Notes under the pieces: generated by a model | The model's input: only the letters and a program-made list of their open reading frames with translations | Database searches by the model: none | Told to the model about the DNA's origin: nothing | Part shown: in pieces, positions 27,584-44,858 of the stretch | Position numbering within the stretch: the stretch's first letter is position 1 | How the letters are laid out: the number at the start of each line of letters is the position of its first letter | Made by a program: the position numbers and the translations under genes | Origin: Aneurinibacillus aneurinilyticus ATCC 12856 | GTDB lineage: Bacteria > Bacillota > Bacilli > Aneurinibacillales > Aneurinibacillaceae | Length of the DNA: 64,000 nt | Reading direction: 5' to 3' | Assembly: GCF_000466385.1 (NCBI RefSeq) | Contig: NZ_KE952847.1 | Location: forward strand, 1-64,000

Positions 27584-30004
27584 TTACAATTCAAGTGCCA
27601 GTTTACGGGATAGGTTCTTAAACTCCCGTGCTAATTCTTTTTCTGATAGAGCTTTAGGTGTCACAACTGAAATATTTTGAGTGATACTTGAACCCGTGGC
27701 ATTACCTTGTCCAGATACACCTCTGTAATTAAAATCAAAGCTGGTTGGTACTGCATTTTGCATATCCCTTGAAACTGCTGTCATTGCATCCTCAAAACCT
27801 ACACCGATACCTTCACCCATGTTGTGGCCAATTCCAGCAAATAGAGTTGAAGGGGAGCGGATACCGAAAAAGTCTTTTATCCTCGATACAACATTTCCGA
27901 AAAACCCGGATATTTTACCCCATAACCATGCACCTGCGTCTGATATACCCTTCCACAACCCTTTAATCAAATTGCCGCCCACTTGTGCCATTTGACCGAT
28001 ATAGCCAGTAAAGGCCCTAACCAGTCCAGAGATAATCTGCGGTACGGCTTTTACGATCTCCACGATTATCCTTGGCAGATTTGCAATCAGTGCCACAAAC
28101 AGTTGTACACCCGCTAAGATAATCTTATCGATGTTACCAATAATGGCATTGACCAGCGAGCTAACAATCTTGGGAATAGCACCTACAACAGTAGTAATAA
28201 TCTGTGGCAATGCCTGTATGAGTGATATTAGAAGCCGGATACCTGCATCAATAATCAAAGGAATCGACCCAATAACAGCACTGATGATACTATCGATAAT
28301 TTGCGGAATTGCTTCCACAACTGCTGTAATAATGGTAGGCAAAGCTGTGACCAGTGAGGTCAATAATTGAATACCCGCATCAATAATCTGTGGAATAGAT
28401 GCAATGATAAAATCCACTATTGCTTTGATGATGACCGGTAAGGCAGAAGTAAGCTGAGGTATTGCCTCTACCAATCCCTGTGCTAACCCTATAATCAACT
28501 GCAAAGCGGCATCCAAAATGAGTGGTAGGTTATCCATCAATCCTTGGACAATCTGCATAACTGCAGAAACTGCCGCAGGGATGAGTTGTGGTAACGCTAT
28601 GCCGATTCCCTCCACAAGTGCTGTTACTAATTCAATTGCTGCATTTATTAGCAGTGGAAGGTTATCAATTAATGCACCGACAATCGTCATTAGAGCACTT
28701 ACCGTCGCTGGAATAAGTTCGGGTAAAAGGCTCAAAATTGTTTCCAGTACTTGCGCGAATATATTTGTAACCAATTCAAGAAGCATTGGTAGCAAGTCTG
28801 CAACCGCCGCTAATATTGCGCCTGTCGCTGTTGGCAAGGCGGCTACGATATTTTCTAAAACCGGTACAATATTAGTGACAACCGCCTCGAAAGCATCAAC
28901 AAGATTCTCAGTCAGATTCGTCATATCAGCATTGGCATTACCGAGTCCAGCTGTAAATGAACCAAGTGCGGCCTGTAGTAACCCAATAGAACCGGAGATT
29001 GTCTCGGTTGATTCTTTTGCAAAGTTACCTGCATACTGCTCTGTGTTCTCAAAGAACATTTGCATTGCTACTTCGGCTTTTTCCGCTTGTGTTGCAGTAT
29101 TCCAAGTGAAATCCAGACCCTTTGCGAGAGCATAGGCTTCGATGTTTGTAGCGTTCATCGCAACACCTAAGTTATCCATCATATCAAAGTTACCCTTTGC
29201 CGCCCCAGTGACTGCCTCCAATGCCGAGGACATATCAATACCCATAACAGATGCCATGTCTGCCGCACGTTGCATGGCCTTTTCAGTTAGCTCAAGACTT
29301 CTCTGTTGCTGTATACCAGAACCTTGGAATAACGCGCCCATTTTGTTGGCAGTTGCAAGGTACTCACTTTGGGAAACACCAAGATTTTTATAAGCTTCCT
29401 CACCCGTTTTCTGAATCGATGCAGCGTATGCACCAAAAACCGCTTCTGAGCCGCCCAGGTTTTGTTCCAGCTCTCCAAACTGCGTGACTACTTCTTTACC
29501 TAACTTAATAGCAGCGGCTCCGGCTGCAACTGCAACCGCACCCATCGCCACACTAATTCCCTTGAGTACACCGCCAAGCTTTTCAAACCTGCCACCAGCA
29601 TCCTCTGCACTTTTACCTGAATCCTCTAACTCTTCACCGAGATTATCCGCTTCAATTGTAGACTCCTCAAGTTCACGTTCCATAAGGTTCAGTTCTGCCT
29701 GAGCCCTATTTAATTGGATCTGCCAGTTTTGGGTACGACGGTCATTTTCACCGAAAGAGGAGGAGGCATTATCAAGGGCAGCCTTAAGGGTAGAAATCTT
29801 TTCTTTCTGTGCGTCAATTTCTTTATTTAAAACGGCATTTCGAGCCGTGATCGATTGAATGGATTTATCGTTTTTATCAAATTGACTGGTTACAAGGGCC
29901 ATTTCACTACCTAGTACCTTAAATGATTGATTGATTTCGGAGAGTGCCTTCTTAAATTCTCGCTCACCCTCGACACCTATTTTTAATCCAAAATTATCCG
30001 CCAT
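27584..30004 (-). CDS. Tail tape measure protein
   Basis: The 806-residue product starts with a coiled coil (FKKALSEINQSFKVLGSEMA). It carries a TMP-type core (about 190-340: FGAYAASIQKTGEEAYKNLG, ANKMGALFQGSG, AAKGNFDMMDNLGVAMNATN) and then a long hydrophobic stretch (about 370-690) made of roughly 38-residue repeats such as LPLLINAAIELVTALVEG and IPLIIDAGIRLLISLIQALP. The repeats probably form membrane-active helices and set the tail length. GGAGGAGGTGAAGGG precedes the ATG. It directly follows the gpG/gpGT gene, as usual. Confidence 0.93.
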   Translation of the reverse strand: MADNFGLKIGVEGEREFKKALSEINQSFKVLGSEMALVTSQFDKNDKSIQSITARNAVLNKEIDAQKEKISTLKAALDNASSSFGENDRRTQNWQIQLNRAQAELNLMERELEESTIEADNLGEELEDSGKSAEDAGGRFEKLGGVLKGISVAMGAVAVAAGAAAIKLGKEVVTQFGELEQNLGGSEAVFGAYAASIQKTGEEAYKNLGVSQSEYLATANKMGALFQGSGIQQQRSLELTEKAMQRAADMASVMGIDMSSALEAVTGAAKGNFDMMDNLGVAMNATNIEAYALAKGLDFTWNTATQAEKAEVAMQMFFENTEQYAGNFAKESTETISGSIGLLQAALGSFTAGLGNANADMTNLTENLVDAFEAVVTNIVPVLENIVAALPTATGAILAAVADLLPMLLELVTNIFAQVLETILSLLPELIPATVSALMTIVGALIDNLPLLINAAIELVTALVEGIGIALPQLIPAAVSAVMQIVQGLMDNLPLILDAALQLIIGLAQGLVEAIPQLTSALPVIIKAIVDFIIASIPQIIDAGIQLLTSLVTALPTIITAVVEAIPQIIDSIISAVIGSIPLIIDAGIRLLISLIQALPQIITTVVGAIPKIVSSLVNAIIGNIDKIILAGVQLFVALIANLPRIIVEIVKAVPQIISGLVRAFTGYIGQMAQVGGNLIKGLWKGISDAGAWLWGKISGFFGNVVSRIKDFFGIRSPSTLFAGIGHNMGEGIGVGFEDAMTAVSRDMQNAVPTSFDFNYRGVSGQGNATGSSITQNISVVTPKALSEKELAREFKNLSRKLALEL

Positions 30005-30018
30005 CCCTTCACCTCCTC

Positions 30019-30593
30019 CTATATGCCTAGTGGGATAATATCGTCAATGGTCTGAGTTTTCTTTGGCTTTTCAATGCCATGCCACTGCTTATGGCAAGCC
30101 CATAAATCAAAAAACAGTCCAATTGGCAGAAGCCAGAATTCCTCTGCCTCCATGCCCATCTGGACTGTTCCATAATAAAGAAGCCGGGTAAAGACCTCAG
30201 CGTCCGTTACCCGACTTCCACGTTTTTTGGAGTTTCCTCCTCACTTTCCACATTTCTCTTTGTACCTTTGAACATTGCCTCGGTAATTGCAGTTTTATAT
30301 GCCGCTAAGTCAAGCGGTGAAGTAAGAAGCTCCACTTCTTCCTCTGTAAGCAATTCTTCTGGTGCGTTCTTATTCTTAAGATTACGAATCAAAATGGACT
30401 GGTTTGCAAGCAATGTAATTAGCCAAACAATCTCGTCCAGTGCCATCTCGAAGTTTTCTGATTTCATCAGTTTTTCTCCAAGGTTTTCAAGACCACCGTA
30501 ACGACCGGCAATGGCCTTTGTTGCACGTGTAGTTAAAACCAGTTCATACTCTTTGTCACGTATGTTGATTGAGGCACTTCTATCATTATCCAT
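30019..30593 (-). CDS. Tail assembly chaperone gpGT, made by -1 frameshift
   Basis: The gpG frame reads into A AAA AAC at 30228-30222 (minus strand). A -1 slip there continues into a frame that begins RGSRVTDAEVFTRLLYYGTV, then MGMEAEEFWLLPIGLFFDLW, and stops at 30019. This second part is a typical gpT domain, occupies the space between gpG and the tape measure gene, and has no start codon of its own. In lambda-like tails the gpGT fusion binds the tape measure and tail tube proteins during assembly. Confidence 0.85.
30207..30593 (-). CDS. Tail assembly chaperone gpG
   Basis: The 128-residue product (ASINIRDKEYELVLTTRATK, LENLGEKL, LDEIVWLITLLANQS) matches small tail chaperones encoded between the major tail protein and the tape measure gene. 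Without frameshifting, translation stops at 30207. The acidic C-terminus (ESEEETPKNVEVG) contains the slippery site. ATG 30593 follows GGAGGGGAAATC. Confidence 0.85.
   Translation of the reverse strand: MDNDRSASINIRDKEYELVLTTRATKAIAGRYGGLENLGEKLMKSENFEMALDEIVWLITLLANQSILIRNLKNKNAPEELLTEEEVELLTSPLDLAAYKTAITEAMFKGTKRNVESEEETPKNVEVG
30222..30228 (-). promoter_or_regulatory. Programmed -1 ribosomal frameshift site
   Basis: The minus strand reads A AAA AAC in the gpG frame, the canonical X XXY YYZ slippery heptamer. Slipping one base back opens the gpT frame directly after it. Lys-Asn codons in the P and A sites can re-pair as Lys-Lys. Confidence 0.8.
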
Positions 30594-32310: not shown

Positions 32311-32631
32311 CTAAACACCCCACTCTCGATCAAGTCGTAAAAGCAAGTTCACTGTATTCCATACTTGTTGTCCCGCCTGTACGCTATCAGCAAAGAAACC
32401 TGCCGTCGAGCCATCTCTACTTTCATAGAAATGACTCGACAACATGATCACTGCTTGTTCTGTTGTTGGAGGCATAGCATGTGTTTCATAATAGTTTTCA
32501 GGAACGTGCTGATAGCTCTGTGCATAGGAGACTGCAGCAGTGATAAATCCAATAAGGAGGGCATCATCCTGATCATGTGCTAAAATTAAGTTCGCTTTAA
32601 CTTTAGGCAAGAGATTATCTGCCACTGCCAT
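32311..32631 (-). CDS. Head-tail connector protein (gp6-like)
   Basis: The 106-residue helical product (LPKVKANLILAHDQDDALLI, GFITAAVSYAQSYQHVPENY, EQAVIMLSSHFYESRDGSTA) has the standard pattern of HK97 gp6/SPP1 gp15 connectors, which form a ring under the portal. AAAGGAGGTTGGTGGT precedes ATG 32631. The order portal-protease-capsid-(fibre)-connector-closure is conserved. Confidence 0.9.
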   Translation of the reverse strand: MAVADNLLPKVKANLILAHDQDDALLIGFITAAVSYAQSYQHVPENYYETHAMPPTTEQAVIMLSSHFYESRDGSTAGFFADSVQAGQQVWNTVNLLLRLDREWGV

Positions 32632-36073: not shown

Positions 36074-37678
36074 TTAAAAGACAATCAAACCTCGCTCGTC
36101 ATACACCGAATCTCCACTATTACCTGAGCCACAACGAATAGCACGATCAAGTGCCATGATAGTTGCCACCGCGCCATCTATTTTTTCTGTACTTTTTTCT
36201 TTATCCGGCTTCACGTTGCCCGCCGGATCAGTTTTTATAAAGATGTTGTCCATCATCCAACGAAGCACTGGATGCCCACCGTGTGCTATTCTTTCTTCTA
36301 ATGTCAATTTCATCAGTTCTTTGGTTGGTGGTGACATATCTTTAAAGCCTTGACCGAAAGGAACGACAGTAAAGCCTAATCCTTCAAGGTTCTGAACCAT
36401 TTGAACAGCTCCCCAACGGTCAAAAGCAATTTCTCGAATGTTATACTTTTCTCCAAGTTCCTCAATAAACCGCTCAATGTAGCCGTAATGTACTACATTG
36501 CCTTCTGTAGTTAGAATATACCCTTGCTTCTCCCAAAGATCGTATTGCACATGGTCTCTTCGGACTCGGAGGTCAATGTTGTCCTCTGGCATCCAAAAAT
36601 ACGGAAGAACAACGTACTTATCTGTTTCATCCTCCGGTGGAAACACCAACACAAAGGCTGTAATGTCTGTTGTAGAAGATAGGTCAAGACCTCCATAACA
36701 TACCCGCCCTTCAAGACTTTCTGGAATAACTGGAAATGCACAGGCATCCCATTTTGCCATTGGCATCCAACGGACAGACTGTTTAACCCATTGATTCAAG
36801 CGCAATTGCCGGAAGCTATTTTCCTCAGCTGGGTTCTGCTTTGCACTTTCACAAGCAGCCCTTACCTTGTCAATCCCCACCGTAATTCCCAAGCTTGGAT
36901 TTGCTTTCTTCCACACTTTTGGATCTGTCCAATCATCCTCTTCTTTGGCACCATAGATTACGGGATAAAAGGTAGGGTCGTATTTTCTGCCCTCAATAAT
37001 ATCAACCGCTTTTTGGTGTGTTTCGTAGCAGATACTCTGAGTATCCGTCCCCGCAGTGGTGATAAGAAAATACAGCGGTTGGGTCCTTGCATCCCCAGAT
37101 CCTTTCGTCATAACATCAAATAGTTTCCGATTTGGCTGAGTATGAAGTTCATCAAAAACAACACCATGTATATTGAAGCCGTGTTTGGAGTAGGCTTCAG
37201 CCGACAATACCTGATAGAAGCTGTTGGTCGGCAGGTACACCAATCGCTTAGTTGAAGCAAGCAACTTTACTCGTTTATTCAGCGCTGGACACATCCGCAC
37301 CATATCGGCTGCTACTTCAAATACAATTGATGCCTGCTGGCGATCTGCGGCACAACCGTATACCTCTGCTCGTTCTTCACCATCTCCACAAGTGAGGAGA
37401 AGTGCGATTGCTGCTGCAAGCTCGCTTTTTCCCATCTTTTTAGGTATTTCTATATAAGCCGTGTTAAACTGCCGGTATCCATTAGGTTTTAAGATACCGA
37501 ATAAATCACGGACAATTTGCTCCTGCCAATCGATAAGTTCAAAAGGCTTACCTGCCCATAAACCTTTCGTATGGGAGAGTGCTTCGATAAAAGCTACAGC
37601 GTAATCAGCAGCATCCTCATCGTAATATGAACCATCAGCTATAAAGGCGGTCGGCTTATATTTCTTCAGTTTCCGCAT
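36074..37678 (-). CDS. Terminase large subunit
   Basis: A protein of 534 residues. The N-terminal ATPase has PKKMGKSELAAAIALLLTCG (Walker A-like) and FNIHGVVFDELHTQPN (Walker B), then TTAGTD (coupling motif). The C-terminal nuclease has CYGGLDLSSTTDITAFVLVF (metal-binding Asp) and EIAFDRWGAV, and ends with KIDGAVATIMALDRAI. It pumps phage DNA into the head and cuts it. ATG 37678 follows GGGGCGGTGTTT. Confidence 0.96.
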   Translation of the reverse strand: MRKLKKYKPTAFIADGSYYDEDAADYAVAFIEALSHTKGLWAGKPFELIDWQEQIVRDLFGILKPNGYRQFNTAYIEIPKKMGKSELAAAIALLLTCGDGEERAEVYGCAADRQQASIVFEVAADMVRMCPALNKRVKLLASTKRLVYLPTNSFYQVLSAEAYSKHGFNIHGVVFDELHTQPNRKLFDVMTKGSGDARTQPLYFLITTAGTDTQSICYETHQKAVDIIEGRKYDPTFYPVIYGAKEEDDWTDPKVWKKANPSLGITVGIDKVRAACESAKQNPAEENSFRQLRLNQWVKQSVRWMPMAKWDACAFPVIPESLEGRVCYGGLDLSSTTDITAFVLVFPPEDETDKYVVLPYFWMPEDNIDLRVRRDHVQYDLWEKQGYILTTEGNVVHYGYIERFIEELGEKYNIREIAFDRWGAVQMVQNLEGLGFTVVPFGQGFKDMSPPTKELMKLTLEERIAHGGHPVLRWMMDNIFIKTDPAGNVKPDKEKSTEKIDGAVATIMALDRAIRCGSGNSGDSVYDERGLIVF

Positions 37679-37766
37679 AAACACCGCCCCTTTATGAAAA
37701 AGGACAAAAGAAAAGAGCCTCAATCCTATAGATGAAGCCCTACTTCTTATCCTAGTTTAATTTTAT

Positions 37767-38995: not shown

Positions 38996-40252
38996 TTAAT
39001 CGGCGGTATTTTGTGTAGATAAATCAACATTTGGCAGGTCACCATATCTAAATTTCGAACCATCTCTTAAAAGAAACACACCATCCGAGTTTCCGACTTG
39101 CTCAATATACCTTTCCACAATGACATCACAGTACTTTTCATCCAGTTCAATGGTGTAGCAAATTCTATCGGTCTGCTCACAAGCAATCAGTGTACTTCCT
39201 GAACCACCAAAGGGATCAAGCACGATGCAGTTACTAAGGCTTGAGTTCATAATGGGGTATGCCACAAGTGCCACTGGTTTCATGGTTGGATGGTCGCCAT
39301 TTTTCTTTGGTTTCTCAAACTCCCAGATGGTGGTCTGCTTGCGGTCTGAATACCAGAGATGCTTGCCTTTCTTTTTCCATCCAAAGAGTACTGGTTCATG
39401 CTGCCACTGATATGGGGAGCGACCGAGAACAAGGGACTGCTTTTTCCATATACAAGTACCGGAAAGATAAAATCCTGCATCGGAGAATGCTCTTCTAAAA
39501 TTGAGTCCTTCCGTATCAGCATGAAATACATAAATAGATGCGTCCTTTGCCATCGCTGCTTCGGTGTTTTGAAATGCCGCAAGCAGAAAATCATAGAACG
39601 CTTCATTAGCCATATTGTCATTTTTGATTTTTCCAGCAGTGCCTTCATAGTTGACGTTATATGGAGGGTCCGTAACTACCAGATTGGCAGCTTTCCCATC
39701 CATCAAGACATCAAAGGTGTCTTTCTTTGTACTGTCTCCACAGACTAATCGATGCTGTCCAAGTAGCCAAACATCCCCTAAATGCGAAACAGCGGGCTTT
39801 TTCAGCTCGCTGTCTACATCAAAATCATCTTCTTTTATATTATCCTTAAGGGAATCCTTGAAAAGATCGTCCAACTCTCCCGGGTCAAAACCTGTCAAAG
39901 ACACATCAAAGTCTGAAGCATTTAGGTCCGTGATGAGAAGTGCTAATTTGTCTTTATCCCAATCACCACTAATTTTATTTAGTGCAATGTTCAGCGCCTT
40001 CTCCTTTTGCTCATCCATTTCAACTACTACGCATTCTATCTCATCTATACCCATACTAAGCAGGACTTTTAAACGCTGATGACCTCCGATAACTCTGCCT
40101 GTAGTCTTATTCCATATAACGGGTTCTACATAACCAAACTCCTCAAGGGAGCGTTTAAGTTTCTCATATTCCGAATCACTCGGTTTTAAATCTTTCCTTG
40201 GGTTATATTCAGCGGGGATGAGTTGTTTAGTTTTAATCTTCTCTATCAACAT
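38996..40252 (-). CDS. DNA methyltransferase with ParB-like N-terminal domain
   Basis: A protein of 418 residues. Residues about 1-105 are a ParB-like domain (LIPAEYNPRKDLKPSDSEY, RVIGGHQRLKVLLSMGIDEI). The rest is an N4/N6 amino-methyltransferase: DPPYNVNYEG (catalytic motif IV) comes first, and VLDPFGGSGSTLIACEQTDR (SAM-binding motif I) near the end, the beta-class order. It probably methylates phage DNA against host restriction. ATG 40252 overlaps the end of the SAM synthetase gene by 20 bases, so enzyme and cofactor supply are coupled. Confidence 0.92.
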   Translation of the reverse strand: MLIEKIKTKQLIPAEYNPRKDLKPSDSEYEKLKRSLEEFGYVEPVIWNKTTGRVIGGHQRLKVLLSMGIDEIECVVVEMDEQKEKALNIALNKISGDWDKDKLALLITDLNASDFDVSLTGFDPGELDDLFKDSLKDNIKEDDFDVDSELKKPAVSHLGDVWLLGQHRLVCGDSTKKDTFDVLMDGKAANLVVTDPPYNVNYEGTAGKIKNDNMANEAFYDFLLAAFQNTEAAMAKDASIYVFHADTEGLNFRRAFSDAGFYLSGTCIWKKQSLVLGRSPYQWQHEPVLFGWKKKGKHLWYSDRKQTTIWEFEKPKKNGDHPTMKPVALVAYPIMNSSLSNCIVLDPFGGSGSTLIACEQTDRICYTIELDEKYCDVIVERYIEQVGNSDGVFLLRDGSKFRYGDLPNVDLSTQNTAD

Positions 40253-41408
40253 ACTTTTCCACCGCCTTTCTAAATTCACTGTATTTATTTACATCCTCCC
40301 ACGGGAACAGACAACTGTTAAAGTGACCATAAGCCGCGGTGTCAGAGTAAATCACATTTCTAAGACGCAGTTTTTCAATGATGGCCGCAGGTCTTAAGTT
40401 GAAAGTTTCCTGGGCAGCAAGAGTTAATATTTCATCAGAAATAGTGCCAGTACCAAGGGTATTTACAGTAAAGGCTACTGGGTTTGCCTTACCAATGGCA
40501 TAGGAAATACTCACTTCACATTTCTTGGCATAGCCACACCAAACGATATGCTTGGCAATATACCGAGCCATGTAAGCACCGCTTCGGTCAACTTTTGTTG
40601 GGTCTTTACCACAAAGAGCACCACCTCCATGAGATGCAAGCCCTCCATAGGTATCGACCATGATTTTTCTTCCAGTCAAACCCGTATCGGCAGCGGGTCC
40701 ACCAAGTACGAACTGACCTGATGGATTGATGAGAATTTCTGTTTCATCATCAAAAGGGAAGTCTTCAAAGCACTGCCATAAGACATTGTTAAGGATATCT
40801 GCCTTAAGTTCTTCCTGTGTTTTATTCTTATCGTGCTGTACCGATATCACAATCGTCTTTATTCTTACTGGAGTGTCAGCTTCATATTCTACCGTTACTT
40901 GTGCTTTACCATCGGGAAGAATCCCTTTTATCAGCTTTCCTTTGCGACAATCATCCAGTCTTTTTACTATTCTGTGGGATAGTACAAGAGGGAGGGGGAG
41001 CATTTCCCTTGTTTCCTTTGTAGCATAGCCATACATAGTCCCCTGGTCTCCAGCACCTATGGAACCGTACTGTTCGTTTATTCCATTTCGTACTTCCAGT
41101 GCGGTATTCACACCAGCCGCAATATCTACACTTTGACTATGTATATATACATAAATCAAAAATTTTAGAGGGTTGTATCCAATCTCTTTTAGGACATTTC
41201 TAACAATGTATCGGATGTCGATTTTCCCGCTGCAGGAGATCTCGCCCGCCACGATAATTTTTCCTTTAGTCGCTATAATCTCGCAAGCCACCCTTGATGC
41301 CCTATCTTTACGTAGGCAAGCTTCCAAAATGCTATCTGCTATGATGTCGCATAGTTTATCAGGATGTCCAGCACATACACTTTCTGCTGTTAAATATCTC
41401 TTACTCAT
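40233..41408 (-). CDS. metK: Phage-encoded S-adenosylmethionine synthetase
   Basis: The 391-residue product has the MetK landmarks: ESVCAGHPDKLCDIIADSIL (ATP-binding His), GAGDQGTMYGYATKETREML (signature hexapeptide), GGLASHGGGALCGKDPTKVD (P-loop-like) and RSGAYMARYIAKHIVWCGYA. It makes SAM from methionine and ATP. It sits between the small terminase gene and the methyltransferase gene, a metabolic addition rather than a structural gene. Two Cys-rich segments and a shorter C-terminus than host MetK suggest a phage-type lineage. ATG 41408 was chosen for MSKRYLTAES. Confidence 0.95.
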   Translation of the reverse strand: MSKRYLTAESVCAGHPDKLCDIIADSILEACLRKDRASRVACEIIATKGKIIVAGEISCSGKIDIRYIVRNVLKEIGYNPLKFLIYVYIHSQSVDIAAGVNTALEVRNGINEQYGSIGAGDQGTMYGYATKETREMLPLPLVLSHRIVKRLDDCRKGKLIKGILPDGKAQVTVEYEADTPVRIKTIVISVQHDKNKTQEELKADILNNVLWQCFEDFPFDDETEILINPSGQFVLGGPAADTGLTGRKIMVDTYGGLASHGGGALCGKDPTKVDRSGAYMARYIAKHIVWCGYAKKCEVSISYAIGKANPVAFTVNTLGTGTISDEILTLAAQETFNLRPAAIIEKLRLRNVIYSDTAAYGHFNSCLFPWEDVNKYSEFRKAVEKYVDRED

Positions 41409-41428
41409 TACACCGTATCTCCTCATCT

Positions 41429-41980
41429 TTATTTTCCTCTGCGGGCAGATAGCAATCGCTCCATCACATCGTCCTGTGGGTTTAAACCAGAGTACTCTGT
41501 AGCACAGTTCTCCCTAACGATTTGATATATCTCCATCCATAGCCTGTTTGTCTGACTCATAAAGCTCTGGCTCATCGCTACATAAGGACTTTGAATTGCA
41601 TTGCCGGTAGTTGGATGCTTTGCTAGAAAACCAAACTCGGTTACCGCTTCCTCACACTGTATCCATCTGGCCGCACTCATGGCATACCGTTCTAGAAGCT
41701 GTGGAAGTACCAAATGGGCACATTCTCGCTCCTCAAGCCATTTCCATGTAATTTCATAGATTTCACTCGCTTCTAAGGTTTTCCCATCCTTTTGCACTGC
41801 GGAGAGCATGGCCCTTGGCTTTGGCATTTCCTGCCCCTTCAGGTCAGCAGTATTCTTGAACTCGACGACCTCAAGCTTTCTTTTACCGGGATTTCCCTCT
41901 GCAATTTTGTCAGCAAGTGGTTTTTTCTTTTGACCGGAGCCTATACGGGCGCCGCCTCGGTTTGTTCCGTCTTTGGCCAT
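41429..41980 (-). CDS. Terminase small subunit, P27 family
   Basis: The 183-residue product (GGARIGSGQKKKPLADKIAE, GNPGKRKLEVVEF, WKWLEERECAHLVLPQLLER, YAMSAARWIQCEEAVTEFG) is a P27-type small terminase, with an N-terminal basic G-R-P-like segment and helical core. It recognises the packaging site on phage DNA. Its distance from the large subunit gene is unusual: about 3.5 kb with the SAM synthetase, methyltransferase and three small genes between. Confidence 0.92.
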   Translation of the reverse strand: MAKDGTNRGGARIGSGQKKKPLADKIAEGNPGKRKLEVVEFKNTADLKGQEMPKPRAMLSAVQKDGKTLEASEIYEITWKWLEERECAHLVLPQLLERYAMSAARWIQCEEAVTEFGFLAKHPTTGNAIQSPYVAMSQSFMSQTNRLWMEIYQIVRENCATEYSGLNPQDDVMERLLSARRGK

Positions 41981-42091
41981 TCACTCACCTCTTTTCATCG
42001 ATGGACCTATTACCCCGTTTGAAACCGCGAATTTTCACGCGTTACCCCACGCCCGTTACACAAAGAAAAAGCTGTAGAGATTTGACTCCCC

Positions 42092-42451
42092 CTACCGGAT
42101 TCCCCAACGGTCTCCATCTCTTGCTGTGATTGCAGAGTGGCAAGGAGTACAAAGAGCCATCAGATTACTTCTATCGTGTGTCCCACCTCTTGCAAGTGGA
42201 AGAATGTGATGCACTTCAGTTGCCGGGGTCAGCTTTCCTTGTCTTTTGCATTCCTCGCAAAGAGGATGAGCTGCAATGTAACGGTCACGTATTCTTTTCC
42301 AAGCACGACCATAACGCTTACGGGTTGCTGGATCGCGGTCATACTTTTCATACCGTGTAGCTTCCTTCTTGCTATGTTCTTCACAAAAGCGACTGTCAGT
42401 CAGCTCTGGGCAACCAGGGTAAGAGCATGGTCGCTTAGGTTTCTTTGGCAT
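42092..42451 (-). CDS. HNH endonuclease next to terminase genes
   Basis: The 119-residue product has CSYPGCPELTDSRFCEEHSK (zinc Cys), YGRAWKRIRDRYIAAHPLCE, then EVHHILPLARGGTHDRSNLM (HNH His-His and Asn) and ALCTPCHSAITARDG. HNH proteins adjacent to the small terminase are needed for DNA packaging cuts in HK97-like phages such as phi-type cos phages. ATG 42451 follows GGAGGTGCAGT. It is the first gene of the late operon. Confidence 0.93.
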   Translation of the reverse strand: MPKKPKRPCSYPGCPELTDSRFCEEHSKKEATRYEKYDRDPATRKRYGRAWKRIRDRYIAAHPLCEECKRQGKLTPATEVHHILPLARGGTHDRSNLMALCTPCHSAITARDGDRWGIR

Positions 42452-42474
42452 ACTGCACCTCCTTTTGCCCATAG

Positions 42475-42512
42475 AAAAAGCCCTCGCAGGAGAAATGCTC
42501 CCGTGAAGGCTT
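42475..42512 (-). terminator. Terminator hairpin inside the late leader
   Basis: AAGCCCTCGCAGGAG (42478-42492) pairs with CTCCCGTGAAGGCTT (42498-42512) with a few mismatches around a short loop. On the minus strand the stem is followed by TTTTTC. It lies between the -10 box at 42538-42543 and the first late gene at 42451, so it would stop or attenuate transcripts entering the late operon. Confidence 0.65.
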
Positions 42513-42537
42513 CTGTTTATTAATATTCCATACTACT

Positions 42538-42602
42538 ATTATATAACTTTCACTACGGACAAACAGTGTCAACCTGTGCCAATGTGTGCCAAAGTATGCC
42601 AA
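42538..42602 (-). promoter_or_regulatory. Late promoter with four 10-base activator repeats
   Basis: Plus-strand units ACAGTGTCAA, CCTGTGCCAA, TGTGTGCCAA and AGTATGCCAA lie back to back at 42563-42602 with an exact 10-base period, one DNA turn. Downstream on the minus strand TATAAT lies at 42538-42543 with no good -35 at the right distance; TTGACA at 42567-42572 is 23 bases away. An activator bound to one face of the DNA would explain this. The DUF1492 protein, encoded directly upstream, is the likely candidate. Confidence 0.65.
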
Positions 42603-42606
42603 CTTT

Positions 42607-43020
42607 TTATTTTGGAACCTTTAAATGTTGCAAAGCGGATGAATGGAGTCTATGCACAGTTCTCATAGAAACATTAAGGTTGACACAGATTTCTTCCCAG
42701 TTAAGAAAGTTAATGTATCGGTAGCGAAGAATCAGCTTCTCATCCACGTTTTCCATCTGGTTAATTGCTTCACGAATATCCGATTTCAGCTTTACTAATT
42801 GTTCAACCTCTTGTTGTATCTGTTGCTCCAAATCTACTATTCTAATCACATATTTTTCAAAGGGCGGGTCAGTACTCTTGGTTCGACTAACTTTTTCCTC
42901 AAGCACAGGAGATGAAACACTTCTTGATAGATCTCTTAAGTTTTGTAGCTCTTCAAGGTCGGAATTAATCAATTCATTCAGACGATAAGCCTGTTTTAAG
43001 AATTCCTTAGCTGTCATCAT
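42607..43020 (-). CDS. DUF1492/sigma-like late transcription regulator
   Basis: The 137-residue product has a helical N-terminus (AKEFLKQAYRLNELINSDLE). Its C-terminal helix-turn-helix (LILRYRYINFLNWEEICVNL, VSMRTVHRLHSSALQHL) resembles sigma region 4. DUF1492 proteins belong with the ArpU/RinA group that switches on late phage genes. It ends four bases before a set of phased repeats in the late promoter region. GAGGTGGTGCG precedes the ATG at 43020. Confidence 0.85.
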   Translation of the reverse strand: MMTAKEFLKQAYRLNELINSDLEELQNLRDLSRSVSSPVLEEKVSRTKSTDPPFEKYVIRIVDLEQQIQQEVEQLVKLKSDIREAINQMENVDEKLILRYRYINFLNWEEICVNLNVSMRTVHRLHSSALQHLKVPK

Positions 43021-43238
43021 CGCACCACCTCCTCTTGTAACTGTTGAATTAACATGTCAGGGTTTAGAGAGGTGAGGATATTGAACAATCCAGAATGAAA
43101 GAAGCACTCAACCTCACGTTTCGTATATAAAGCAGAATCATTGCGAGGGTGTTTTGCTAATCTTTTCAGTGCAAAACGATAATCCTTGACCGCCTGTAGA
43201 ATAATGGCATTCGCCAGCTTTTCAAAAGCGTCCATCAT
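43017..43238 (-). CDS. Small phage protein of unknown function
   Basis: The 73-residue helical product (FEKLANAIILQAVKDYRFAL, RNDSALYTKREVECFFHSGL) is of a type often encoded between the SNF2 helicase and the late regulator in Bacillota phages. Overlaps of four bases at both ends show tight translational coupling. No function is known to me. Confidence 0.7.
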   Translation of the reverse strand: MMDAFEKLANAIILQAVKDYRFALKRLAKHPRNDSALYTKREVECFFHSGLFNILTSLNPDMLIQQLQEEVVR

Positions 43239-44596
43239 ACAACTTCCCTCGCTTTCCCAAGATTTGCTTTGACTGCATTGATAAGATCGGATTGTGTCTT
43301 TTCCTTTCGTTTCAAAGCCCTCATCACATCTTCATCAATCGTACCTTTAGTAATAATGTGATGAATAACCACTGTCTCATTTTGACCTTGTCTCCAAAGT
43401 CTCGCATTTGTTTGCTGATAGAGTTCCAGACTCCAAGTAAGTCCAAACCAGATAAGCGTTGAACCACCACTTTGTAAGTTAAGGCCGTGTCCCGCAGATG
43501 CAGGATGGATAACCGCTACAGAAATATCGCCGTTGTTCCAATCCTTGATATCCTTGGAAGTCTTAATTTCTCTGACATTGAATTTTGCCTTAATACGCTC
43601 TAAATCGTGATTATACCAATAGGCAATAAGCACAGGTTTTCCGTTAGCACCTTCAATTAAATCCTCAAGAGCATCTAGCTTGCGGTCGTGGATAATATGG
43701 GGGTTTTTATCATCATCATAGATAGCACCGTTTGCCATTTGCAGGAGTTTCCCTGAAAGGACGGCTGCATTCATGGCATCTATTTCTTCATCAGCAAATT
43801 CAAGAACCATCTCTTCACGAAAGTGATCATATACGGATTGTTCTTTTTCATTTAGATACACAGGCACTTCATTGATCATGCATTTTGGCATCTTCAGAAA
43901 ATCGACTGATTTCATGGAAATGGTGATATCCGAAATGAGCCGATAGATGGCATCTTCAGCACCTGGCAACGGTTTATATGAAAATACGATTTGCTGATTA
44001 CGTTTATCCGGTGTAAAAAAGGAATTGCGGTAGTGAGTTATGTACCTGCCGAGTCTTTTACCCATGTCGAGAATACGAAACTCTGCCCACAAATCCATTA
44101 ACCCATTACTGGAAGGTGTACCCGTAAGACCCACAATCCGTTTTGCCCTTGGTCTGACTTTTAGTAAACTTTTAAATCTTTTTGCACCATAGGATTTAAA
44201 GGATGATAGCTCATCGATTACCACCATGTCATAGTCAAAAGGGATGCCACTTTTGTTTACCAACCAGTCCACATTTTCTCTATTTATAAGATAGACACTT
44301 GCAGGTTTTCTAAGAGCCGCCAATCGCTCCTGTTCTGTGCCGATGGCTACCGAAAACTCCAGTCCTTTTAAATGCTCCCACTTATTTATCTCAGCTGGCC
44401 AAGTATCCCTTGCTACTCGAAGTGGGGCAATGACCAGAACCTTTCCAACTTCAAAACGATCAAGACATAAATCAAATATAGCCGTTAGAGTAATGACGCT
44501 TTTGCCAAGACCCATTTCTAAAAACACCGCAGCAATGGGATGCTCTAAAATGAAATTGGTTGCATAGGTCTGATATTTATGAGGATTGTATTTCAC
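43235..44596 (-). CDS. SNF2-family DNA helicase
   Basis: The 453-residue protein has the SF2 motifs: MGLGKSVITLTAIF (Walker A), VIDELSSFKSYGAKRF (motif II), VGLTGTPSSNGLMDLWAEFR (motif III), QSGGSTLIWFGLTWSLELYQ (V) and QTNARLWRQGQNETV (VI). It probably helps replication or recombination by remodelling DNA-protein complexes. The start is GTG 44596, seven bases after GGAGGG, giving KYNPHKYQ. It overlaps the VRR-NUC gene by 20 bases. Confidence 0.92.
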   Translation of the reverse strand: MKYNPHKYQTYATNFILEHPIAAVFLEMGLGKSVITLTAIFDLCLDRFEVGKVLVIAPLRVARDTWPAEINKWEHLKGLEFSVAIGTEQERLAALRKPASVYLINRENVDWLVNKSGIPFDYDMVVIDELSSFKSYGAKRFKSLLKVRPRAKRIVGLTGTPSSNGLMDLWAEFRILDMGKRLGRYITHYRNSFFTPDKRNQQIVFSYKPLPGAEDAIYRLISDITISMKSVDFLKMPKCMINEVPVYLNEKEQSVYDHFREEMVLEFADEEIDAMNAAVLSGKLLQMANGAIYDDDKNPHIIHDRKLDALEDLIEGANGKPVLIAYWYNHDLERIKAKFNVREIKTSKDIKDWNNGDISVAVIHPASAGHGLNLQSGGSTLIWFGLTWSLELYQQTNARLWRQGQNETVVIHHIITKGTIDEDVMRALKRKEKTQSDLINAVKANLGKAREVV

Positions 44597-44858
44597 CCAG
44601 TATCCCTCCAATCTGCTTAACATCATCAATTACATAGCAAGTAAAGCCTAACTTCTGTAATTGCTTTATTCTTCTAATCTGTAACAGGCGAGGTTTCTTT
44701 CCGGGAGCCTTTAATTCCACAAATGCCATCTTCCCATATGGTAAAAGCAATAGGCGGTCTGGCATCCCATCTAAACCTGGGCTAACAAACTTCGCCGCAA
44801 TGCCCCCCATCTTTTTTACCTCAGCCACCAGTTTCTTTTCTATATATTTTTCAAGCAT
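44577..44858 (-). CDS. VRR-NUC domain nuclease
   Basis: The 93-residue product is a complete stand-alone VRR-NUC domain: EKYIEKKLVAEVKKMGGIAA, KFVSPGLDGMPDRLLLL (PD motif) and KMAFVELKAPGKKP (E-x-K). It should cut branched or single-stranded DNA. ATG 44858 follows GGGAGGTATTT. It is paired with the SNF2 helicase, with overlapping genes, as in many phage replication modules. Confidence 0.93.
   Translation of the reverse strand: MLEKYIEKKLVAEVKKMGGIAAKFVSPGLDGMPDRLLLLPYGKMAFVELKAPGKKPRLLQIRRIKQLQKLGFTCYVIDDVKQIGGILGEIQSS

Follow-up and report, generated by a model that had tools for sequence, protein, structure and literature searches.

Known late regulators and the locus under study

The Ltr regulators, as exemplified by that of phage phi13, were reported to need four imperfect direct repeats for activity at a TATA-box promoter (Quiles-Puchalt et al. 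2013, cited through PMC13123087), while Alt of the lactococcal phage TP901-1 was described there to bind four imperfect direct repeats between -76 and -32. The combination of an activator with four direct repeats in the Ltr/RinA/Alt regulators is already known (PMC13123087 and the work it cites), and PMC13123087 does not discuss a leader terminator ('leader' and 'antiterminat' have 0 uses in its text). Moreover, the site that Q21 recognizes in the late promoter is a direct repeat (PMC6606751), and AlpA of Pseudomonas, formerly regarded as an activator, was reclassified as an antiterminator once terminators had been spotted immediately ahead of the genes it targets (PMC7969949). Here we describe a prophage late control region in Aneurinibacillus aneurinilyticus ATCC 12856, located at positions 42,475 to 42,602 of the first 64,000 nucleotides (nt) of contig NZ_KE952847.1, the whole of which is called the window below. 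At this locus, a DUF1492 gene is followed by phased direct repeats, a -10 element and a terminator-like hairpin, and the best explanation overall, to which we assign a probability of about 0.62, is an activator-driven late promoter whose terminator is passed by the late RNA polymerase.

Along the minus strand, which carries the hairpin, the repeats and the genes alike, the control region reads TTGGCATACT TTGGCACACA TTGGCACAGG TTGACACTGT TTGTCCGTAG ... TATAAT ... AGAAGCCTTCACGGGAGCATTTCTCCTGCGAGGGCTTTTTCT ... AAGGAGGT ... ATG, with the following features:

42607 to 43020, minus strand: DUF1492 gene, predicted to encode a RinA/Ltr-type late activator of 137 amino acids (Pfam, PHROG, AlphaFold2)
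42593 to 42602, minus strand: predicted activator site 1, TTGGCATACT (sequence, repeat search, shuffles)
42583 to 42592, minus strand: predicted activator site 2, TTGGCACACA (sequence, repeat search, shuffles)
42573 to 42582, minus strand: predicted activator site 3, TTGGCACAGG (sequence, repeat search, shuffles)
42563 to 42572, minus strand: predicted activator site 4, TTGACACTGT (sequence, repeat search)
42553 to 42562, minus strand: weak fifth unit in the same phase, TTGTCCGTAG (sequence; TTTGTCC kept in close relatives)
42538 to 42543, minus strand: -10 element TATAAT (same place in close and distant relatives)
42476 to 42514, minus strand: leader terminator hairpin, 15 pairs in the minimum free energy fold (fold; model R1, 37.6 bits; relatives; covariation)
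42473 to 42480, minus strand: U-tract TTTTTCT after the stem (sequence; conserved)
about 42458 to 42466, minus strand: Shine-Dalgarno sequence of the HNH gene, AAGGAGGT (sequence)

The original prediction placed four 10-base units beside the DUF1492 gene, and these were found at a spacing of exactly 10 base pairs (bp), the first of them 4 nt past the DUF1492 stop; the CAA or CCAA ends ascribed to them hold for the complement, the minus sense strand reading TTGRCA. A repeat search returned three 17-nt copies at spacings of 10 and 10, and the three-unit score was reached by 0 of 5000 shuffles of the same region, while the triple pattern has no second occurrence in the 5.3-Mb genome. A -10 box without a matching -35 had also been claimed, and indeed no -35 hexamer lies 16-18 bp upstream of TATAAT (42543-42538), the nearest TTGACA, in unit 4, being 23 bp off. 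Between the last units of the array and the -10 there are 13-23 bp. An arrangement of direct repeats ahead of a -10 promoter is that of the RinA/Ltr family (PHROG 36), and a regulator site within or abutting the promoter is that of Q/AlpA-type antiterminators.

RinA of phi11/80alpha, which activates the late operon of the terminase small subunit gene (terS), resembles the window in belonging to PHROG 36, in having its gene directly upstream of the late promoter, and in possessing TGGCA units 10 bp apart and a terminator-like leader hairpin before terS. It differs in that only two clear units are present, HNH is not the first late gene, and the Pfam sigma-region-4 match is above the cut-off in the window protein but not in RinA. 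According to PMC13123087, phi13 Ltr shares the four direct repeats and the TATA-box promoter, but its repeats are 18 rather than 10 bp and it belongs to another Ltr subfamily. TP901-1 carries a terminator-like hairpin beside terS, which is kept as leader length changes, and such a hairpin precedes the first late gene in most of the 18 relatives checked. Alt is of another protein family (DUF722), and the long leader contains tRNA-like inserts. Phage phi12 (L485:2960-3180) likewise has a leader terminator before HNH, but its late regulator is different and its TTGTGCAAAGA/TTGTGCAAAAG units are 11 bp apart.

The Q proteins of lambda and 21, as well as AlpA, are comparable in that their late promoters contain a direct-repeat or element site for the regulator and that an intrinsic terminator separates promoter and first gene. 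Unlike their site, which lies between -35 and -10, the window has an upstream array in place of the -35, and no sequence relation was detected. The C-terminal helix-turn-helix (HTH) matches region 4 of sigma-70 and TTGACA/TTGGCA resembles a -35, but the DUF1492 protein has no region 2 or 3 domain and its sites are several in tandem.

The DUF1492 protein and the phased repeats

The window protein matched the Pfam families DUF1492 (E=1.8e-9) and Sigma70_r4 (E=2.3e-6), and it belongs to PHROG 36 (E=8.3e-31) together with phi11 RinA (1.9e-38). A PDB search with a profile of ten family members matched sigma factors, mainly in region 4 (best FliA, E=1.6e-4), and the regions 2 and 4 that together mark a sigma factor were not both found, as the Pfam and PDB searches matched region 4 alone. 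The AlphaFold2 model, with a mean predicted local distance difference test (pLDDT) score of 87.7 and 96-98 in the HTH blocks, is characterized by long N-terminal helices and a C-terminal three-helix sigma-region-4-like HTH (helices 92-103, 108-115 and 119-132). Foldseek superposed sigma-region-4 (-35 binding) structures on this HTH, with about 55 residues aligned at 1.6-2.3 A, whereas whole-chain E-values were not significant. From an alignment by eye, we take residues 119, 120 and 123 to correspond to R584, E585 and R588 of sigma-70, which are -35 reading positions.

BLASTn of the promoter and leader against phage records gave no DNA-level match, and relatives were therefore compared through the regulator protein. 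Related loci were gathered from viral contigs, genomes and phage records and reduced by protein similarity to 56 non-redundant main loci, which come from phages and prophages of Bacilli, Clostridia, Erysipelothrix, Streptococcus and Gardnerella. In an autocorrelation over the 56 regions, mean self-match had just two peaks, 0.370 at a lag of 10 bp and 0.373 at 20 bp; shuffles gave about 0.25, no other lag exceeded 0.29, and 54 of the regions were phased at p<=0.05 relative to their own shuffles. Three loci (L028-L030) have exactly one 10-bp unit fewer.

The repeat core varies among phages (TGGCA, TGTCC, TRAGC, TGCAAC or TACCC), and its variation follows the regulator. Distance between repeat cores correlated with distance at residues 119/120/123 (r=0.58) and not with that of the N-terminal domain (r=-0.03), and a partial Mantel test controlling for the N-terminal domain gave r=0.59, with p=0.0005 being the lowest value that the permutations allow. 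When all protein columns were scanned without bias for those tracking the repeats, 123 ranked first, followed by 120, 118 and 119, all of which are within the recognition helix of the sigma-region-4-like domain. As tabulated by residues 120/123, RH goes with TGGCA (18 loci), RR with TGTCC (14), TY or TF with GCAAC (TGCAAC; 8), and SR with RAGC (TRAGC; 7) and one TACCC. Exceptions among the 53 scored loci are that S120/R123 protein (E119) with TACCC and one S120/H123 protein with TGACA, both grouped by their neighbours. Phi11 RinA (RTAHR), which lay outside the derivation of the rule, has TTGGCAGTAA and AGTGGCAGTT 10 bp apart, matching the prediction of the code.

Because the recognition helix tracks the repeat sequence and a proven activator, phi11 RinA, fits the same rule, the DUF1492 protein is, on comparative grounds, very probably a late activator of the RinA/Ltr superfamily. 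The predicted pairing of activator and repeats is close to settled by this comparison, and activator-dependent starting with DUF1492 as the predicted binder, which had been proposed beforehand, is strongly supported by membership in PHROG 36 with RinA and by the helix-repeat covariation.

In addition, Ureibacillus, Robertmurraya, Lysinibacillus and many Clostridium species have prophages with nearly identical activators (95-98%; L163-L191), a distribution that suggests a recent spread between bacterial classes.

The terminator-like leader hairpin

The hairpin foreseen before the first late gene folds at -25.5 kcal/mol (z=-3.0; 0 of 200 shuffles equally stable) and ends about 10 nt upstream of the HNH Shine-Dalgarno sequence. 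When hairpins scoring 30 or more were counted as terminator-like, 54 of the 56 leaders carried one, compared with 0.36% of dinucleotide shuffles. The antisense strand had such a hairpin in 10 of 56, and as for coding sequence, the upstream early genes (85 kb) contained none and the downstream genes (78 kb) contained 12. In the aligned hairpins, 95.5% of pair cells were standard and 12 of 13 pairs showed two-sided changes, which none of 500 shuffles equalled, and a shift of the partner by one column abolished the signal. Four-base loops were GNRA in 27 of 34 cases, and the U-tract started with TTT in 52 of 52, with a mean of 6 T within its first 8 nt. None of these counts is fully independent, as some loci are related by sequence ancestry. 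From these comparisons, the leader hairpin is considered a real conserved terminator-like element, lying between promoter and first gene as does the intrinsic terminator of Q/AlpA-type systems.

The median spacing is 23 nt from the -10 to the hairpin start and 15 nt from the U-tract to the Shine-Dalgarno sequence, so that no room is left for a second promoter between the hairpin and the first late gene. Terminator-like hairpins between the late activator gene and the first late gene are also present in phi11, TP901-1, phi12 and phiRM10, which were read singly and give weaker evidence than the 56-locus set. A -10-like pause element (4-of-6 match with A2 and T6) in the first transcribed bases, which Q requires, was found in 88% of leaders versus 40% of shuffles, an enrichment that is not decisive given the varying positions and the related sequences.

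An Rfam search of 41900-42700 gave no match above the gathering score. An alternative GGGC/GCCC pairing 3' of the U-tract was dropped, as it is not retained in the clade of the window, and the hairpin model was rejected as a finder of late leaders, as it matched ordinary terminators too. A link to cabRNA (CBASS-sensed phage RNA) was rejected as well, since cabRNA arises inside terS/terL and not in the leader (PMC10686824).

The junction of activator gene and repeats is a hot spot for cargo, which in L009, L012, L168, L172 and L176 lies between the ltr stop and the repeats (about 1087 bp) and is also found there in L175, L016, L015, L008, L171 and L174. It includes an antisense peptide deformylase gene (PF01327), a YcdB/YcdC-repeat protein, a lipoprotein, a 216-aa protein and insertion sequences. 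In the cargo-bearing loci, the repeats, the -10 and the hairpin stay one block at unchanged spacing. In L175 (score 42.5) and L015, the cargo brings its own strong sense terminator, yet the leader hairpin is unchanged.

Proposed mechanism and alternatives

In the proposed mechanism, the sigma-region-4-like HTH of the DUF1492 protein would read the TTGRCA-like core in each 10-bp unit, as the covariation suggests, and since the units are on one helix face, several activator copies could be bound side by side. The bound activators would replace the missing -35 and recruit RNA polymerase to TATAAT, from which RNA would start about 7 nt past the -10. Within about 60 nt, the late RNA would reach the intrinsic terminator that lies directly ahead of the first late gene, and by its position this hairpin must be crossed by each late transcript from the repeat promoter. 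The same terminator would stop transcripts from the early operon, which is co-directional with the late genes and has the activator gene as its last gene. Finally, the late polymerase would pass the hairpin, most simply either by becoming termination-resistant when loaded at the array, as with lambda Q and AlpA, or through a promoter output that exceeds a leaky terminator. Of the two checks on late expression originally suggested, activator-dependent starting is strongly supported; the hairpin is a conserved terminator-like element and may be a second check that antitermination overcomes, although insulation against early transcription would account for much of the same data. It is possible, albeit doubtful, that the RinA, Ltr and Alt regulators of Gram-positive phages are activators and promoter-loaded antiterminators at once, with a sigma-region-4 mimic at phased sites in place of the -35 that engages RNA polymerase and enables it to cross the intrinsic terminator of nearly all late leaders. 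If true, Gram-positive phages would have evolved, on their own, an equivalent of lambda Q.

Antitermination is plausible, and its main rival, which we put slightly higher and just short of an even chance, is that the hairpin is purely an insulator, which would block early read-through while the activator acts at initiation alone and a strong promoter beats the leaky terminator. The co-directional early operon ending with the activator gene fits this explanation, because the repeats begin 4 nt past that gene and leave no other site for an early terminator, and the hairpin has an ordinary terminator shape. A phi13 reporter with a leader of just 50 bp already depends on the phage factor (PMC13123087), so Ltr can act on initiation alone, phi13 Ltr being of a different subfamily. 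Moreover, 28 of 30 matches of the hairpin model retrieved in related genomes are ordinary terminators not beside an Ltr gene, so the hairpin itself bears no mark of regulation, and the independent helix-and-repeat switches on well-supported branches, though all concordant, number 2-3 per class and are too few for a sign test. The reporter, the model matches and the scarcity of switches weigh against an activator-driven promoter with a terminator passed by late polymerase. What speaks for it rather than for insulation is that cargo loci have room for, and some already have, a strong sense terminator and still keep the hairpin, which weakly favours a role beyond insulation as the insertions may be young. 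In addition, the terminator remains beside terS in relatives of TP901-1 whose leader length varies by hundreds of bases, and a strong terminator in nearly all late leaders would be a cost to the phage unless bypassed.

The hairpin could instead act after transcription, as a 5' stem-loop stabilizing the late mRNA or setting HNH translation, as it is near the 5' end and the Shine-Dalgarno sequence (at the median 15 nt given above) and CUCC in its 3' arm could pair with the latter; this seems unlikely, considering that a U-tract conserved directly after the stem (TTT, 52/52) and a sense bias of 54 versus 10 are signs of a terminator, and that in TP901-1 hundreds of bases separate the hairpin from the 5' end. 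That the repeats are bound by another phage or host protein, with DUF1492 regulating elsewhere, would agree with the lack of any DUF1492-protein footprint in the literature searched, but it is very improbable, since the unbiased column scan places specificity in the DUF1492 recognition helix and phi11 RinA obeys the same rule. Least probable of all is a packaging (cos) signal for an HNH-terminase complex in place of transcription signals. The repeats and hairpin adjoin HNH and terS, a neighbourhood that is the usual place of cos sites, but the repeat sequence tracks the activator helix and not HNH, and the separate 111-bp HNH-terS gap is a better candidate. Phi11 and TP901-1 are described as headful packagers, and they have the same arrangement without need for cos.

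The repeat code and the near-universal leader terminator appear new, as no paper in the literature searched describes the code, DUF1492 as the binder or a general leader terminator, although papers outside it could. With the code, DUF1492, a domain of unknown function, gains a predicted function and a readable DNA recognition, so that sequence could serve to find the late promoters of many Firmicute prophages and pair them with their regulators. A terminator almost always present between these promoters and the late genes also raises the neglected question of whether RinA/Ltr proteins are antiterminators; the reclassification of AlpA from activator to antiterminator likewise began with a terminator lying directly ahead of the first gene.

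Gene order and other observations in the window

The window belongs to a prophage of the 5.3-Mb genome, whose minus strand carries the early and late genes in the order helicase (43235-44629), a small open reading frame, the DUF1492 gene, the control region, HNH, terS, S-adenosylmethionine synthetase, methyltransferase and the terminase large subunit gene (terL). The order activator, HNH, terS, terL is shared by the window and L155-L162. The late genes are:

42092 to 42451, minus strand: first late gene, HNH endonuclease (Pfam HNH E=2.6e-15; PHROG 144)
41429 to 41980, minus strand: second late gene, terminase small subunit (Pfam Terminase_4; PHROG 83)
36074 to 37723, minus strand: terminase large subunit, late operon (Pfam TerL)

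An ATG at 42472, where the terminator U-tract finishes, shares the HNH reading frame, and the Shine-Dalgarno sequence would be read as codons from it. The candidate cos site mentioned above is the gap at 41981-42091. Between terS and terL (38996-41426), the window encodes a full S-adenosylmethionine synthetase and a ParB-N/N4-N6 DNA methyltransferase, a pair which is also located 3' of terS in several related phages. Two more terminator-like hairpins are present within the late operon on the minus strand (30179-30219 and 32399-32446), one of which precedes a long open reading frame (27584-30004).
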